Source: an uncultured Bacteroidia bacterium (GTDB lineage: Bacteria; Bacteroidota; Bacteroidia; Bacteroidales; UBA932). Taken from it: a DNA stretch of 64,000 nucleotides. The notes under the pieces are model-generated. The model made no database searches. It worked only from the letters and a program-made list of their open reading frames with translations, and was not told the origin of the DNA. Shown here piece after piece: positions 39,509-62,270 of the stretch (positions within the stretch are counted from its first letter, which is position 1; every line of letters begins with the position of its first letter). Position numbers and translations under genes: made by a program. The DNA is taken from the NCBI GenBank assembly GCA_902782225.1, contig CACZMF010000001.1, positions 1 through 64,000 of the forward strand, read 5' to 3'.

Positions 39509-39589
39509 CGGGCTGCAGGAACAGCCTCCCGCTACAAAATTTCTGCGCCTCCGCTTGAAATTTCAAGGTCGGCTGGCTCCTGCAGCCCG
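39509..39589. repeat. Palindromic repeat family 1, copy 1
   Basis: An 81-bp two-tier hairpin. Outer arms CGGGCTGCAGGA and TCCTGCAGCCCG pair perfectly, then CAGCC with GGCTG; the inner tier is AAATTTC-TGCG with CGCT-x-GAAATTT around a 4-base loop. It matches the element at 60266-60356 in the core but not in the outer arms. Confidence 0.8.
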
Positions 39590-39617
39590 CCGTTCTTCTC
39601 CCGCCGTTCTTCTCCCG
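39590..39617 (+). repeat. 14-bp tandem duplication next to family 1 copy 1
   Basis: The unit CCGTTCTTCTCCCG occurs twice in a row, immediately after the palindrome. Confidence 0.75.
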
Positions 39618-39679
39618 CTGGCATTCCGCCGTTTGCTTCTCCGCTGCCGTTCCGGGGACCGCCCCTCCGCCGCCTGTCC

Positions 39680-39880
39680 CTCCGCGACAGGACCCACAAC
39701 GGTGCCAGAGTCCCATCATGGCAGGGAACTAGGCTCATTTCTCCTTCTTCCCCTCCGCGACGGGACCCACAGCGGTGCCAGAGTCCCGTCATGGCAGGGA
39801 ACTAGGCTCATTTCTCCGTCTTCCTCTCCGCGACGGGAGCCACAGCGGTGCCAGAGTCCCGTCACCGCAGGGAAGGCAGT
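39680..39880 (+). repeat. 73-bp tandem array, nearly three units
   Basis: The landmark CGGTGCCAGAGTCCC recurs at 39700, 39773 and 39846, spacing 73 bp. Units contain a GGGAC...GTCCC inverted repeat and the spacer GGGAACTAGGCTCATTTCTC. Units differ by a few substitutions. Confidence 0.85.
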
Positions 39881-39907
39881 AGTATGGCGCGGGCCCCCCA
39901 ATTGGCC

Positions 39908-39983
39908 GGCGCAGGTCCTGGGGCATCCCGGCGCAAGTCCTGGGGCATCCCGGCGCAAGTCCTGGGGCATTCTGGCGCAGGTC
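39908..39983 (+). repeat. 22-bp tandem array, about 3.5 units
   Basis: The unit GGCGCAAGTCCTGGGGCATC (plus CC) starts at 39908, 39930, 39952 and 39974. The final partial unit also forms a perfect 10-bp stem (GGCGCAGGTC with GACCTGCGCC) ending at 40008. Confidence 0.85.
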
Positions 39984-40178: not shown

Positions 40179-40376
40179 TGGGGGTGCAGGGGGATGGTGT
40201 GACCTGCACGGTGTGCCGTGCGGGACTGTTTCTATGCCGTTCCGGGACCGGAGGCCGAAGGCCGACAGAGGGGATAGCTGCGCCGCAGCGGAAGGGGAAC
40301 CTTCCCCTTCTCCCCTGGGGGTGCAGGGGGATGGTGTGTCCTGCACGGTGTGCCGTGCGGGACTGTTTCTATGCCG
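40179..40376 (+). repeat. 61-bp direct repeat pair
   Basis: Copies at 40179-40239 and 40316-40376 differ at one base (A/T in GTGTGxCCTGC). Each contains a GTGCAGG...CCTGCAC inverted repeat and ends in GGGACTGTTTCTATGCCG. Between them lies a perfect 20-bp palindrome at 40291-40310. Confidence 0.85.
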
Positions 40377-40398
40377 GAACGGCATAGAAACAGTCCCG
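40358..40398. repeat. Perfect 19-bp stem-loop
   Basis: The end of the second 61-bp copy (from CGGGACTG to ATGCCG) is followed by GAA and its exact reverse complement, giving a 19-bp stem with a 3-base loop. No T run follows on either strand, so it is not a standard terminator. Confidence 0.85.
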
Positions 40399-57082: not shown

Positions 57083-57143
57083 GGGGGGCTCTTTCGCTCC
57101 CGCTGGAATGGATTACTGTCCAGCGGCAGCACTTGGGGCCCGC
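57083..57143 (-). repeat. Palindromic repeat family 2, copy 1 (inverted)
   Basis: Read on the minus strand, it matches the elements at 60150-60263: CCCCAAGTGC, a hairpin CCGCTGGA/TCCAGCGG (57100-57126), then GGGAGCGAAA and a C-run. Confidence 0.75.
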
Positions 57144-59347: not shown

Positions 59348-60079
59348 CTACCAACGGTAATTCAAGCCCACGGACACCAGCCGGGAGCCGGCCATGAATA
59401 TATGGTTCACGTTTTTGAGTGCGGCCATGAAGCCAAGGTCCACCGACCCGCACCAGTGGCCTTTCCCTACCTGGATGCCTATGGTGTTGACATCGAACAC
59501 CGGGAGGACTTCACGGGCGTCGGAGTTGTTCCACGCGAAGAGCGCCCCGGCCCCCAGCCCGGAGTAGAGCCGCACCCACTCGCGGTCCAGCCAGGTGAAG
59601 CGGACCGTGGGCAGGACGGAAAGGTCATAATTACGGGTGCGCCGGCCGTCCTGGGTCCAGCTGACACTCAGGAAGTCCACTTCGGCGCCCACGCTGACCA
59701 CCTTGCCGAGACTCCGGCGGTAGTCGGCGAAGATGTGGCCGGTGTAGCAGTGGTCGGACGCCCCTGCCGCAGGGTAGAAGACCAACTGTTCGAACAGGGG
59801 GTCTCCCCAGCCGAGGCGCAGCAGGTTCTTGTCCTGCGCACGCCCGGGGGCTTGCCCGCTTGCGGTGACTTGCGCCAGAGAGCTGGGGGCTTGCCCGCTT
59901 GCGGTGACTTGCGCCAGAGAGCTGGGGGCTTGCCCGCTTGTGGTGACTTGCGCCTGAGAGCCGGGGGCTTGCCCGCTTGCGGTGACTTGCGCCAGAGAGC
60001 TGGGGGCTTGCCCGCTTGTGGTTGCAGCGGCAAGAAGGAGGCACACCAGGAGCAGCGTAATGTGTCGCACTGTTTTCAT
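59348..60079 (-). CDS. Outer-membrane protein with a 13-residue tandem repeat after the signal peptide
   Basis: A 243-residue protein. A signal peptide (about 1-20) is followed by four full units and a part of SGQAPSSLAQVT(A/T) at 22-80. The rest (about 85-243) has alternating strands and ends LNYRW, as in small beta-barrels. Repeat units are 39 bp and keep the frame. It is first in the operon with the hydrolase and lipoprotein, with a -7 element 5 bases before its ATG. Confidence 0.8.
   Translation of the reverse strand: MKTVRHITLLLVCLLLAAATTSGQAPSSLAQVTASGQAPGSQAQVTTSGQAPSSLAQVTASGQAPSSLAQVTASGQAPGRAQDKNLLRLGWGDPLFEQLVFYPAAGASDHCYTGHIFADYRRSLGKVVSVGAEVDFLSVSWTQDGRRTRNYDLSVLPTVRFTWLDREWVRLYSGLGAGALFAWNNSDAREVLPVFDVNTIGIQVGKGHWCGSVDLGFMAALKNVNHIFMAGSRLVSVGLNYRW
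59840..60016 (-). repeat. In-frame 39-bp minisatellite
   Basis: About 4.5 copies of a 39-bp unit; the landmark CTTGCCCGCT on the plus strand recurs every 39 bp from 59851. Units differ by single substitutions, so copy number may vary between strains. Confidence 0.85.
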
Positions 60080-60149: not shown

Positions 60150-60263
60150 CGCCCCCAAGTGCCGCCGCTGGACAGAAAATCCTTCCAGCGGGAGCGAAAA
60201 AGCCCCCAGGTGCCGCCGCTGGAGCGAAAATCTTTCCAGCGGGAGCGGAACGGCGGGAGCGAA
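60150..60263 (+). repeat. Palindromic repeat family 2, copies 2 and 3 in tandem
   Basis: Two units (about 60150-60209 and 60202-60263). Each has CCCC(A)AGGTGCCG-type lead, hairpin CCGCTGGA/TCCAGCGG (60165-60191 and 60216-60242) and the GGGAGCGAAA tail. They match the inverted copy at 57083-57143. Confidence 0.8.
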
Positions 60264-60265
60264 AG

Positions 60266-60356
60266 CTCGGCGGGCAGCAGGGATCAGCCTCCCGCTACAA
60301 AATTTCAGCGCATTCGCTCGAAATTTCAAGGTCGGCTGACCCTGCCGCCCGCCGAG
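60266..60356. repeat. Palindromic repeat family 1, copy 2
   Basis: A 91-bp two-tier hairpin. The outer arm from CTCGGCGGGC to CAGCC pairs with GGCTG...GCCCGCCGAG with one mismatch and one bulge. The core (CAGCCTCCCGCTACAAAATT, the AAATTTC/GAAATTT inner stem and TTTCAAGGTCGGCTG) is shared with 39509-39589. Confidence 0.82.
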
Positions 60357-60428
60357 CCCTCTCAACCGAGCCCTCTCAACCGAGCCCTCTCAACCGAGCC
60401 CTCTCAACCGAGCCCTCTCAACCGAGCC
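60353..60428 (+). repeat. 14-bp tandem array next to family 1 copy 2
   Basis: Five exact units of CGAGCCCTCTCAAC (60353-60422) and a partial sixth. The array starts on the last bases of the palindrome. The remaining gap to 60503 holds nothing recognisable. Confidence 0.88.
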
Positions 60429-60503
60429 TTTTCAGCCATGGCTCCGGGAACGTTTTGCCGACTCTCCTCCAGAACCCACTGAACGCTGAACTTCTTCCAG
60501 GGC

Positions 60504-62270
60504 CTACTGAACGTCCAGTGTGAGCTCGAGGATCTTGTTTTCGCCGCTGGCGAGCGTCAGGTGTGCTTCGACGACGTGTTTACCGGTGGTGAGCCTTACC
60601 GAGGGGCCGCTCACCGGTTCGTCGTCAAAGAACCACGCGACCGAGGAGACCGGCTGGGCCTCGCTTTCGATGAGCGTAAGCGCAAAGTCGCTGCCGGCGG
60701 AATACACTCCGCCTCCCGGATTTGCGATCACGTTGTAATTGAGCGAACTGGATGGAACGGTGGCATAGAGGGATACCTGTCCTTCGGAATAAGTAATGTT
60801 GGACAGCTGAATGTCAGAATTGACGCCGTTCCAGCTTTTGGCCGTATAGGTCTTCTTGCCGGCCGTTCCCGGGAATGCCCACTTGGCGCCTGTGTAATTC
60901 AGGCTTGTCTGGTTGCCGGCGGGAACCACGTAGAAGCACGGGTGCGAGCCGTTCTCGTTGATGGAGTTGTACTTGCCCCAGTTGCTCCAGAGCGATTCGG
61001 CCGACACGTTGATGTTGCCGGAGCTGCCACTTATGGCCACTTGGCGCGATGACTTGTCCACATGGTACACGATCAGTCCGGCCTCCGGGATATACCTGTC
61101 CCAACCGGTCTTGCTGCGGCATTCGTAAACAAAATACTCACCGTCCATATCGGTCAGCGTCTTGTAAGCGACATTGCCGCTGACGCTGGTAAGGGTATAT
61201 GTTCCGGACTGGCCGAACTCCTGTATGATTGACGGCTGCTGCCAGCCAAGCAAAATACGCTCCTCGATATTGAAGTAGGGGGGAGTGCGGCCTTCGTTGT
61301 TGTACGAACCGCTGCACATCGTAGAATACGCATACAGGCCTCCGGCCTCGCCGTTGGTCTTGTAATCGGTATCATAGAAATCCGGAAGTCCCATGGCGTG
61401 GCCGAATTCGTGGCAGGCTGTGCCGATGCCGCACATTTTCAGTCCGTCGCTATACTGCACAATCTCGTTGGAGCAGGCGTATTTGTTGATCTTCTTGCCG
61501 TCGAGGGTGAGGGATATGCCGGCGAAAGTGATTTCCCACTGGTGGGGCCAGATGCAGTCTTCGCTGCCACCGTCGGCTTCGCCCCTTCCTGCATAATACA
61601 TGAAGACGAGGTCTACTTCTCCGTCGTTGTCGTAGTCGTAGATTGAGAAGTCGATGGAAGAATCGAGTGACTGGCAGCCCTCCTTTACAGCATACTCGGG
61701 ACGCAAATCATCGCCATCGCTATCATTTCCGCCGTAATAGGCCTGATTGTTGTCGAGACGTACCGGACCGTACACGTCGAATATGGGTTCGAACGCCTTG
61801 CCGGAATTGTCGTAATAGTAGTCCCTGGCGGAACCGGTGCCTCCGTTTACACTGTAATTATGATTGTTGAGCATAGCGGTGAAATCGGCATTGGCGGTGC
61901 TGCTGGAAAAGTGCACGTCACTGAACTCCACGAGTATCACGAGGAAATGTTTCTGTCCGCTGGCGACGCCCGCTTTGGCGGGAGCATAACGGCGCCGTGC
62001 GTTAGCTTCAGCCCTTGCTGCCCGGGCCTTGATGCGTCTTGCATTCAACTGGGCCTCCGAGACGGGGCGGTAGAATCCGTCCGCATCGAGCGCCACCGTC
62101 TGTCCGGAAGCGTCGGTAGTCCAGTGGCAGAACTCATCGCCGTGGAGACGTATCCTGATCACGCTGCCGTCCGGCTGGGTATAGGAACGCCATCCGGGGT
62201 AGGCAGGTACTGCAAGCGTTGAAACGCAGCAGCATAAAGCTGCAATCGCGATTGCGAATATCTTCTTCAT
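60504..62270 (-). CDS. Secreted M6-family metalloprotease
   Basis: A 588-residue exported protease. The signal peptide ends near TLAVP; an inhibitor-like propeptide (about 22-105) precedes the catalytic domain. The zinc site is H287-E-F-G-H291 with downstream GLPDFYD, the M6 pattern. A calcium-type DYDNDGEVD loop lies at 212-220. C-terminal beta domains (about 490-588) may bind substrate. It lies 8 bp after the fimbrillin-like gene, so the two are probably co-expressed. Confidence 0.92.
   Translation of the reverse strand: MKKIFAIAIAALCCCVSTLAVPAYPGWRSYTQPDGSVIRIRLHGDEFCHWTTDASGQTVALDADGFYRPVSEAQLNARRIKARAARAEANARRRYAPAKAGVASGQKHFLVILVEFSDVHFSSSTANADFTAMLNNHNYSVNGGTGSARDYYYDNSGKAFEPIFDVYGPVRLDNNQAYYGGNDSDGDDLRPEYAVKEGCQSLDSSIDFSIYDYDNDGEVDLVFMYYAGRGEADGGSEDCIWPHQWEITFAGISLTLDGKKINKYACSNEIVQYSDGLKMCGIGTACHEFGHAMGLPDFYDTDYKTNGEAGGLYAYSTMCSGSYNNEGRTPPYFNIEERILLGWQQPSIIQEFGQSGTYTLTSVSGNVAYKTLTDMDGEYFVYECRSKTGWDRYIPEAGLIVYHVDKSSRQVAISGSSGNINVSAESLWSNWGKYNSINENGSHPCFYVVPAGNQTSLNYTGAKWAFPGTAGKKTYTAKSWNGVNSDIQLSNITYSEGQVSLYATVPSSSLNYNVIANPGGGVYSAGSDFALTLIESEAQPVSSVAWFFDDEPVSGPSVRLTTGKHVVEAHLTLASGENKILELTLDVQ

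Follow-up and report, generated by a model that had tools for sequence, protein, structure and literature searches.

A dispersed hairpin element with a conserved core and variable, complementary arms in one genus of rumen Bacteroidales

The window (the whole stretch of DNA that was analysed, 64,000 nucleotides in length) contains two copies of a hairpin element, both of them intergenic (Table 1). Copy 1 starts 20 nt past the stop of the upstream gene, a member of the DcuA/DcuB family (Pfam), and copy 2 is flanked by two minus-strand ORFs, at 60504-62270 (M6 peptidase family, Pfam) and at 59348-60079. A plasmid search with the transporter gene neighbouring the element returned 12 records with 60-80% identity, which held transporter genes where annotated.

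Both hairpins are real, far beyond chance. The RNA-fold z-scores were -6.1 (copy 1) and -10.5 (copy 2) for the plus strand and -6.5 and -9.5, respectively, for the minus strand, and for each copy and strand none of 200 shuffles folded as well as the real hairpin. Fold energies were lower on the minus strand (-50.3 and -71.1 kcal/mol for copies 1 and 2) than on the plus strand (-44.8 and -62.2 kcal/mol), for which reason the minus strand is taken as the element strand; a 2x2 mismatch which reads TC/TC on the plus strand is a tandem GA/GA on the element strand. The two copies share two exact core blocks, CCTCCCGCTACAAAATTT (at 39525 and 60288) and GAAATTTCAAGGTCGG (at 39557 and 60320), and the core pattern with up to three mismatches matched twice in the window, versus 0.02 matches expected. 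The folding statistics and the shared blocks thus confirm the two hairpins and the common core that a preliminary description had placed here. The longest perfect-arm hairpin found in the window is another one (40358-40398, 19 bp with a 3-nt loop), which is without the core.

Table 1. Position of the hairpin element and its parts in the window
Feature	Position	Strand	Basis
Copy 1 of the hairpin element	39509..39589	- (element strand)	stem prediction, fold, covariance model
Copy 1 conserved core, GACC...GGGA on the minus strand	39527..39570	-	core pattern
Copy 1 outer 5' arm, CGGGCTGCAGGA, 12 bp	39509..39520	+	
Copy 1 outer 3' arm, TCCTGCAGCCCG	39578..39589	+	
Copy 2 of the hairpin element	60265..60357	- (element strand)	stem prediction, fold, covariance model
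Copy 2 conserved core	60290..60333	-	core pattern

The anatomy of the element was determined from 51 copies, selected from 55 distinct core matches in the fetched DNA; three matches with flanks of less than 20 nt (contig ends) and one armless chance match in the window were dropped. Near-identical copies with the same 10-nt context were counted once (e.g., C6 and C13 of genome G011, and pairs in G232), and degenerate copies missed by the regular expressions were left out (e.g., G232 C57, G111 C9 and G113 C22). The hairpins are 54-122 nt in length, with arms of 10 to 43 nt (median 26). The minus-strand core consensus is GAYYTTG … TGTANNRNGA. Two core types occur: in most type-1 copies the core, read on the element strand, consists of GA[C/T][C/T]TTGAAA, an inner hairpin and TTTTGTANN[A/G]NGA; the type-2 core is a fixed 23-nt sequence, GACTTTGGCCCTTACGAACAGGA, without an inner hairpin (six copies, one with a base changed). 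Both core types are closed by C-GA / GA-G (tandem G·A mismatches), and type 2 behaves like type 1 in that the core is kept and the arms are variable yet paired. The core is near-identical across species while the arms diverge. Arms vary from copy to copy within G354 and within G111, many of them nearly perfect, and are alike among the copies of G232. Non-orthologous arms keep some residual relatedness (48 of 855 arm pairs with a score of at least 10, versus a shuffle mean of 5.15 and maximum of 11 in 20 shuffles), so that the arms appear to be carried along with the core and to diverge afterwards.

Covariation had been claimed in the preliminary description from the two window copies, which are 88% identical over 81 nt, but this is not borne out. 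In the alignment of these two copies none of the 29 pairs changed on both sides, copy 2 has one mismatched pair (A·C on the plus strand, which is G·U on the minus strand), one pair is gapped, the tip stem GCG/CGC is invariant, and the arms differ mainly by the longer outer arm of copy 2; covariation from these two copies alone was therefore rejected. Across the family, covariation is real. Among 12 copies from three species, aligned without structure guidance, double-sided changes were found in 16 of 27 pairs, and 93.8% of the cells were paired, as against 76.2% in shuffled and 41-59% in slid alignments. Regarding a larger set of 43 copies, in an alignment fitted to the structure, 254 double-change cells were counted, versus 73 in shuffles. 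The earlier idea that structure is kept rather than sequence accordingly fits the arms across the family; it is invisible in the two window copies, and the sequence of the core is conserved as well.

The window's own genome (G000; assembly of 2.58 Mb in 34 contigs, 92% complete) yielded only the two window copies by pattern, by BLAST and by covariance model. A restriction to two copies in the genome had been named in advance as evidence against a family; it is true of this genome, but relatives hold up to about a dozen. BLAST with copy 2 over 101 genomes of the genus yielded further copies in G011 and G004, and among named records a strict core pattern matched nine stretches, all in the MAGs RUG12551 and RGIG8249 (Bacteroidia/Bacteroidales), one of which comes from water-buffalo rumen. 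A covariance model applied to 400 genomes, with 10 candidates of each scored, gave matches in 10 genomes, a figure not relied on as such: the match in G029 is without the core and copies in G027, G113, G105 and G239 were missed. Fuller scoring with a threshold of E<=0.01 gave matches in 13 of 17 chosen genomes, all of the window's genus, with copy numbers (including the weakest and degenerate matches) of 2 in G000, 10 in G004, 6 in G011, 2 in G027, 12 in G111, 4 in G113, 11 in G232, 1 in G239, 2 in G274, 8 in G354, 1 in G374, 2 in G411 and 2 in G105; no matches at this threshold were found in G382, G029, G023 and G356. These numbers are minima, since some contigs end inside or at copies (C82 and C86 of G004, C92 of G011 and C83 of G232); the assemblies are fragmented and, for the most part, incomplete.

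The exact core pattern matched nine of 165 genomes of the genus, seven of which look real; the matches in G042 and G053 look like chance (a control pattern also gave two matches). Across the order, the covariance model, with 14 candidates scored per genome, matched only the window's own genome among 295, and a strict pattern matched one genome of 200. As found, the family is confined to one genus of rumen Bacteroidales, possibly Cryptobacteroides. Viral contigs gave no match to one exact, strict pattern of each core type, and plasmids gave none to a type-2 query, which was likewise strict; carriage by phage or plasmid is unsupported by these searches. No description of the family was encountered in titles and abstract openings of open-licence papers on palindromic, hairpin or RAYT elements of bacteria in Bacteroidetes or the rumen; it is a real dispersed hairpin family, apparently not described before in that literature.

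Comparison of orthologous sites (gene names being a reading of the sequence unless a Pfam match is cited) showed that the copies are insertions, present or absent at the same place in different genomes. A type-2 copy of G239 lies between a tRNA gene and a gene for a ribosomal protein (read as rpmF); all nine aligned relatives lack it. G111, G411 and G027 have the copy within queH, which the five other aligned relatives (G000, G382, G232, G105 and G374) lack; three of these empty sites hold unrelated short extra sequence. Likewise, a copy of G111 beside a trigger-factor-like gene is absent in the three genomes aligned (G411, G274 and G354), the copy in the gene of an HHH protein is absent in G232, G000, G113, G274 and G374 (G411 has a different insert there), G011 lacks the copy found in an ArnT-like gene, and G105 lacks the one between yifB and tsaE. 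These comparisons are few and involve genomes with 65-93% identity in matched DNA. No clear target duplication was seen, the empty sites being too diverged to define junctions, and neither a mobilising enzyme nor a target motif was found for the element.

Fifteen of the 51 copies lie in frame within real genes, and a Pfam family was found for 14 of the 15 ORFs. The hosts are two HI0933-like flavoproteins (with the element at different positions), an AIRS-family protein (thiL-like), a PMT_2-family protein (ArnT-like), two HHH proteins, an altronate/galactarate dehydratase, an MFS transporter, a protein without Pfam match, a TsaD-family protein (tsaB-like), three QueH proteins, a Mur ligase (murE-like) and a GSCFA protein. 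For 11 of these hosts, the Pfam matches run across the element or lie on both sides of it or, in the three QueH proteins, are split into two or three stretches. The three queH copies go back to a single event, as may the two HHH copies. Of the 15 in-frame copies, 11 are read on the element strand and four on the opposite strand, and several reading frames are used, so that the mobile unit is not a conserved peptide.

Three observations, which exceed ordinary covariation, bear on how the arms remain complementary. In the yifB-tsaE spacer, G027 carries the core and arms in inverted orientation with respect to G411 and G111. There, 34 of 38 positions pair between the left arm of G411 and the right arm of G027, and 36 of 39 in the reverse combination, which is better than the pairing of either genome's own arms (32/40 in G411, 31/40 in G027), as an inversion predicts. 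Within queH, the outer arms extend into the host coding sequence, differ among the species and pair within each (in G027 GGAGGTTGCGAG with CTCGCAACCTCC, in G411 GTTCCTCCGGC with GCCGGAGGAAC). Own arms scored clearly higher than swapped arms in G027 (31 vs 9-17) and in G111 (26 vs 9-21); the own arms of G411 scored 19, no better than its left arm combined with the right arm of G111 (21). Thirdly, the distal right arm of the G111 C5 copy consists of sequence that G411 also has in the absence of the element (upstream, the site has different neighbours in G411), and for the copy in the ArnT-like gene, host coding sequence of G011 can be aligned with the distal left arm. The G239 copy seems to have brought its arms along, instead of taking them from the host flank. 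The idea that arms are always copied from the host flank at insertion was therefore rejected as not general, given these arms that are part of the insert and the residual ancestry of arms noted above.

Template switching between the arms of inverted repeats has been reported to homogenise arms and to invert spacers (PMC8604942), and also to create and maintain RNA hairpins (PMC8794818). Template-switch copying between the arms is the likely main cause of complementarity in the present family. The arms would be kept complementary mainly by a DNA polymerase that, while replicating the folded strand, jumps from one arm to the other as its template, by which one arm, sometimes together with adjacent host DNA, would be copied onto the opposite arm; the core would be retained for folding and/or for recognition by the enzyme that disperses the element. 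A stronger proposal, tentative and on the whole doubtful, is that only the core (23-45 nt) is heritable and that the arms are rebuilt and perfected at each site by replication copying one flank onto the other, which would regenerate from local DNA the hairpin needed to move; mutation, not selection, would in that case be the source of the covariation.

With a probability of roughly 0.6, the family is best read as a dispersed palindromic insertion element, similar in kind to the Rickettsia palindromic elements (RPEs), with a conserved core and with fast-diverging complementary arms that would be maintained mainly by template switching. RPEs are small palindromic elements (about 150 bp) which occur in frame in many unrelated genes and elsewhere (PMC10969869). 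The element shares with them, as they are outlined in that report, the small palindromic form, at somewhat shorter length, and the in-frame insertion in unrelated protein genes; it differs by its occurrence in another phylum and by a conserved core within arms that vary by copy, the likeness being one of form and behaviour. Among the literature compared, RPEs appear to be closest in behaviour and the GTAG/CGTC REPs closest in form. Template-switch (quasipalindrome) mutation, as treated in the parts of the two reports considered here (PMC8604942, PMC8794818), resembles the present case in arm homogenisation, multi-base coordinated changes and inversion of the interior; the cases published there concern inverted repeats in yeast genes and RNA genes, whereas here a dispersed element with a fixed core is affected. 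Palindromes in mitochondrial coding genes of Nematomorpha also demonstrate that inverted repeats are tolerated in coding genes, but the part of that report considered here describes no shared core or insertion family (PMC6649704).

Covariation is commonly taken as proof of conserved RNA structure. Since the paired variable stems of the family bear signs of DNA copying (host-derived arms, inversion), it can be used to test how far covariation misleads. The family would also add an RPE-like element that enters genes in frame, including those of a Mur ligase and of a TsaB/TsaD-family protein, in a phylum far from Rickettsia, and it raises the concrete question of what moves the element.

Alternatively, the hairpin could be a structured RNA, or a terminator or processing hairpin, the stem of which is kept by compensatory selection at the RNA level; we consider this unlikely, although it accounts for the strong covariation in both the 12-copy and the 43-copy sets and for a strand asymmetry of the arm mismatches. 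On the element strand, G·U outnumbers A·C (50 vs 18) and G·A outnumbers T·C (73 vs 8) among 44 copies (without those of G232); a recurring motif makes up some of the G·A excess. The tandem G·A motif is also retained. The G·U bias persists among 28 exact-core copies, one per orthologous site (31 vs 8, p 0.0003), and is therefore not only an artefact of a model search that tolerates G·U; the six type-2 copies show no such bias (5 vs 5). Some constraint therefore seems to act on the folded element strand, whether RNA or single-stranded DNA, and the asymmetry, which is not predicted by template switching alone and points to selection on a folded single strand, speaks against a mechanism of DNA copying only. 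The two window copies and several further ones also lie within tens of nucleotides of gene ends, in line with the structured RNA at gene 3' ends that had been suggested. As a rule, however, that suggestion is unsupported: the orientation of the element to genes is not fixed, both directions occurring, 15 of the 51 copies lie in reading frames, the hairpin is inverted at one orthologous site and missing from others, and TTTT was found within 12 nt 3' of the hairpin in one of 51 copies (counted on the element strand only), which does not support an intrinsic terminator. With Rfam 15, the window gave one tRNA only, and four loci searched at E<=1 gave one tRNA and microRNA models below their gathering scores; at gathering thresholds, a known Rfam structured RNA is unsupported for the element in the window and these four loci.

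Distinctly less probable again is a REP family that the host's RAYT (TnpA-REP, Y1 HUH) transposases mobilise. The element is palindromic and dispersed, with some copies in genes; published REPs are likewise dispersed hairpins with G·T pairs in their stems and some intragenic units (PMC3733652), and genes of the Y1_Tnp family are present in three carriers (six in G000, two in G004 and four in G011, some below the curated cut-off). None of these 12 RAYT-like loci, however, holds the element within about 1.5 kb on each side, and eight of them are flanked on either side by a similar hairpin whose sequence is different, one of these hairpins at a distance of 1.26 kb. The GTAG/CGTC tag occurs within 8 nt outside the arms in six of 51 copies, versus 7.6 expected, and the arms are variable and, by their median, longer than the 5-13 bp stems given for REPs in the part of the report considered here (PMC3733652). 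A role of RAYT as the mobiliser is thus unsupported. What had been proposed as a REP-like mobile hairpin family holds as regards mobility, by the filled and empty orthologous sites, but not in the REP/RAYT sense; the transposase search recommended at that time did find RAYT-like genes, but not beside the element.

The RAYT-like genes of the genus (L101-L112) differ in their adjoining hairpins, and several systems, each of one gene and one hairpin, appear to exist side by side within a genome. REP-like hairpins ending in CCAGCGGGAGC are present in the window at 60165-60195 and 60216-60246, and also at 57096 (minus strand). They resemble the hairpins which flank a RAYT-like gene elsewhere in the genome (G000:C4, L112), and a separate REP family therefore seems to adjoin copy 2.

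Inert palindromic debris, i.e. old unrelated insertions with arms paired by inverted-repeat homogenisation and with an unconstrained core, is the least probable explanation and a very unlikely one, given that the core remains near-identical across species while the arms diverge and that two core types have the same closing motif, even though other species have short, core-less hairpins at the same variable places. Such core-less hairpins were observed in queH of G232 (L221) and in the rpmF-tRNA spacers of G374, G411, G105 and G354 (L203-L206), so that hairpins arise at these places without the element as well.

Short tandem repeats lie near both window copies, with units of 73 bp (39678-39896) and 22 bp (39906-39983) near copy 1 and of 39 bp (59900-60022) near copy 2, the last of which is situated within the N-terminal part of the ORF at 59348-60079. 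A 14-bp unit, CCGAGCCCTCTCAA, is present in at least five tandem copies at 60352-60435 and starts within the 3' arm of copy 2; a 14-bp duplication at 39586-39613 likewise starts within the 3' arm of copy 1. Copies in G232 (L113, L075 and other loci) are flanked by short repeats of the GATTCTTCGC type, which are also found near other loci.
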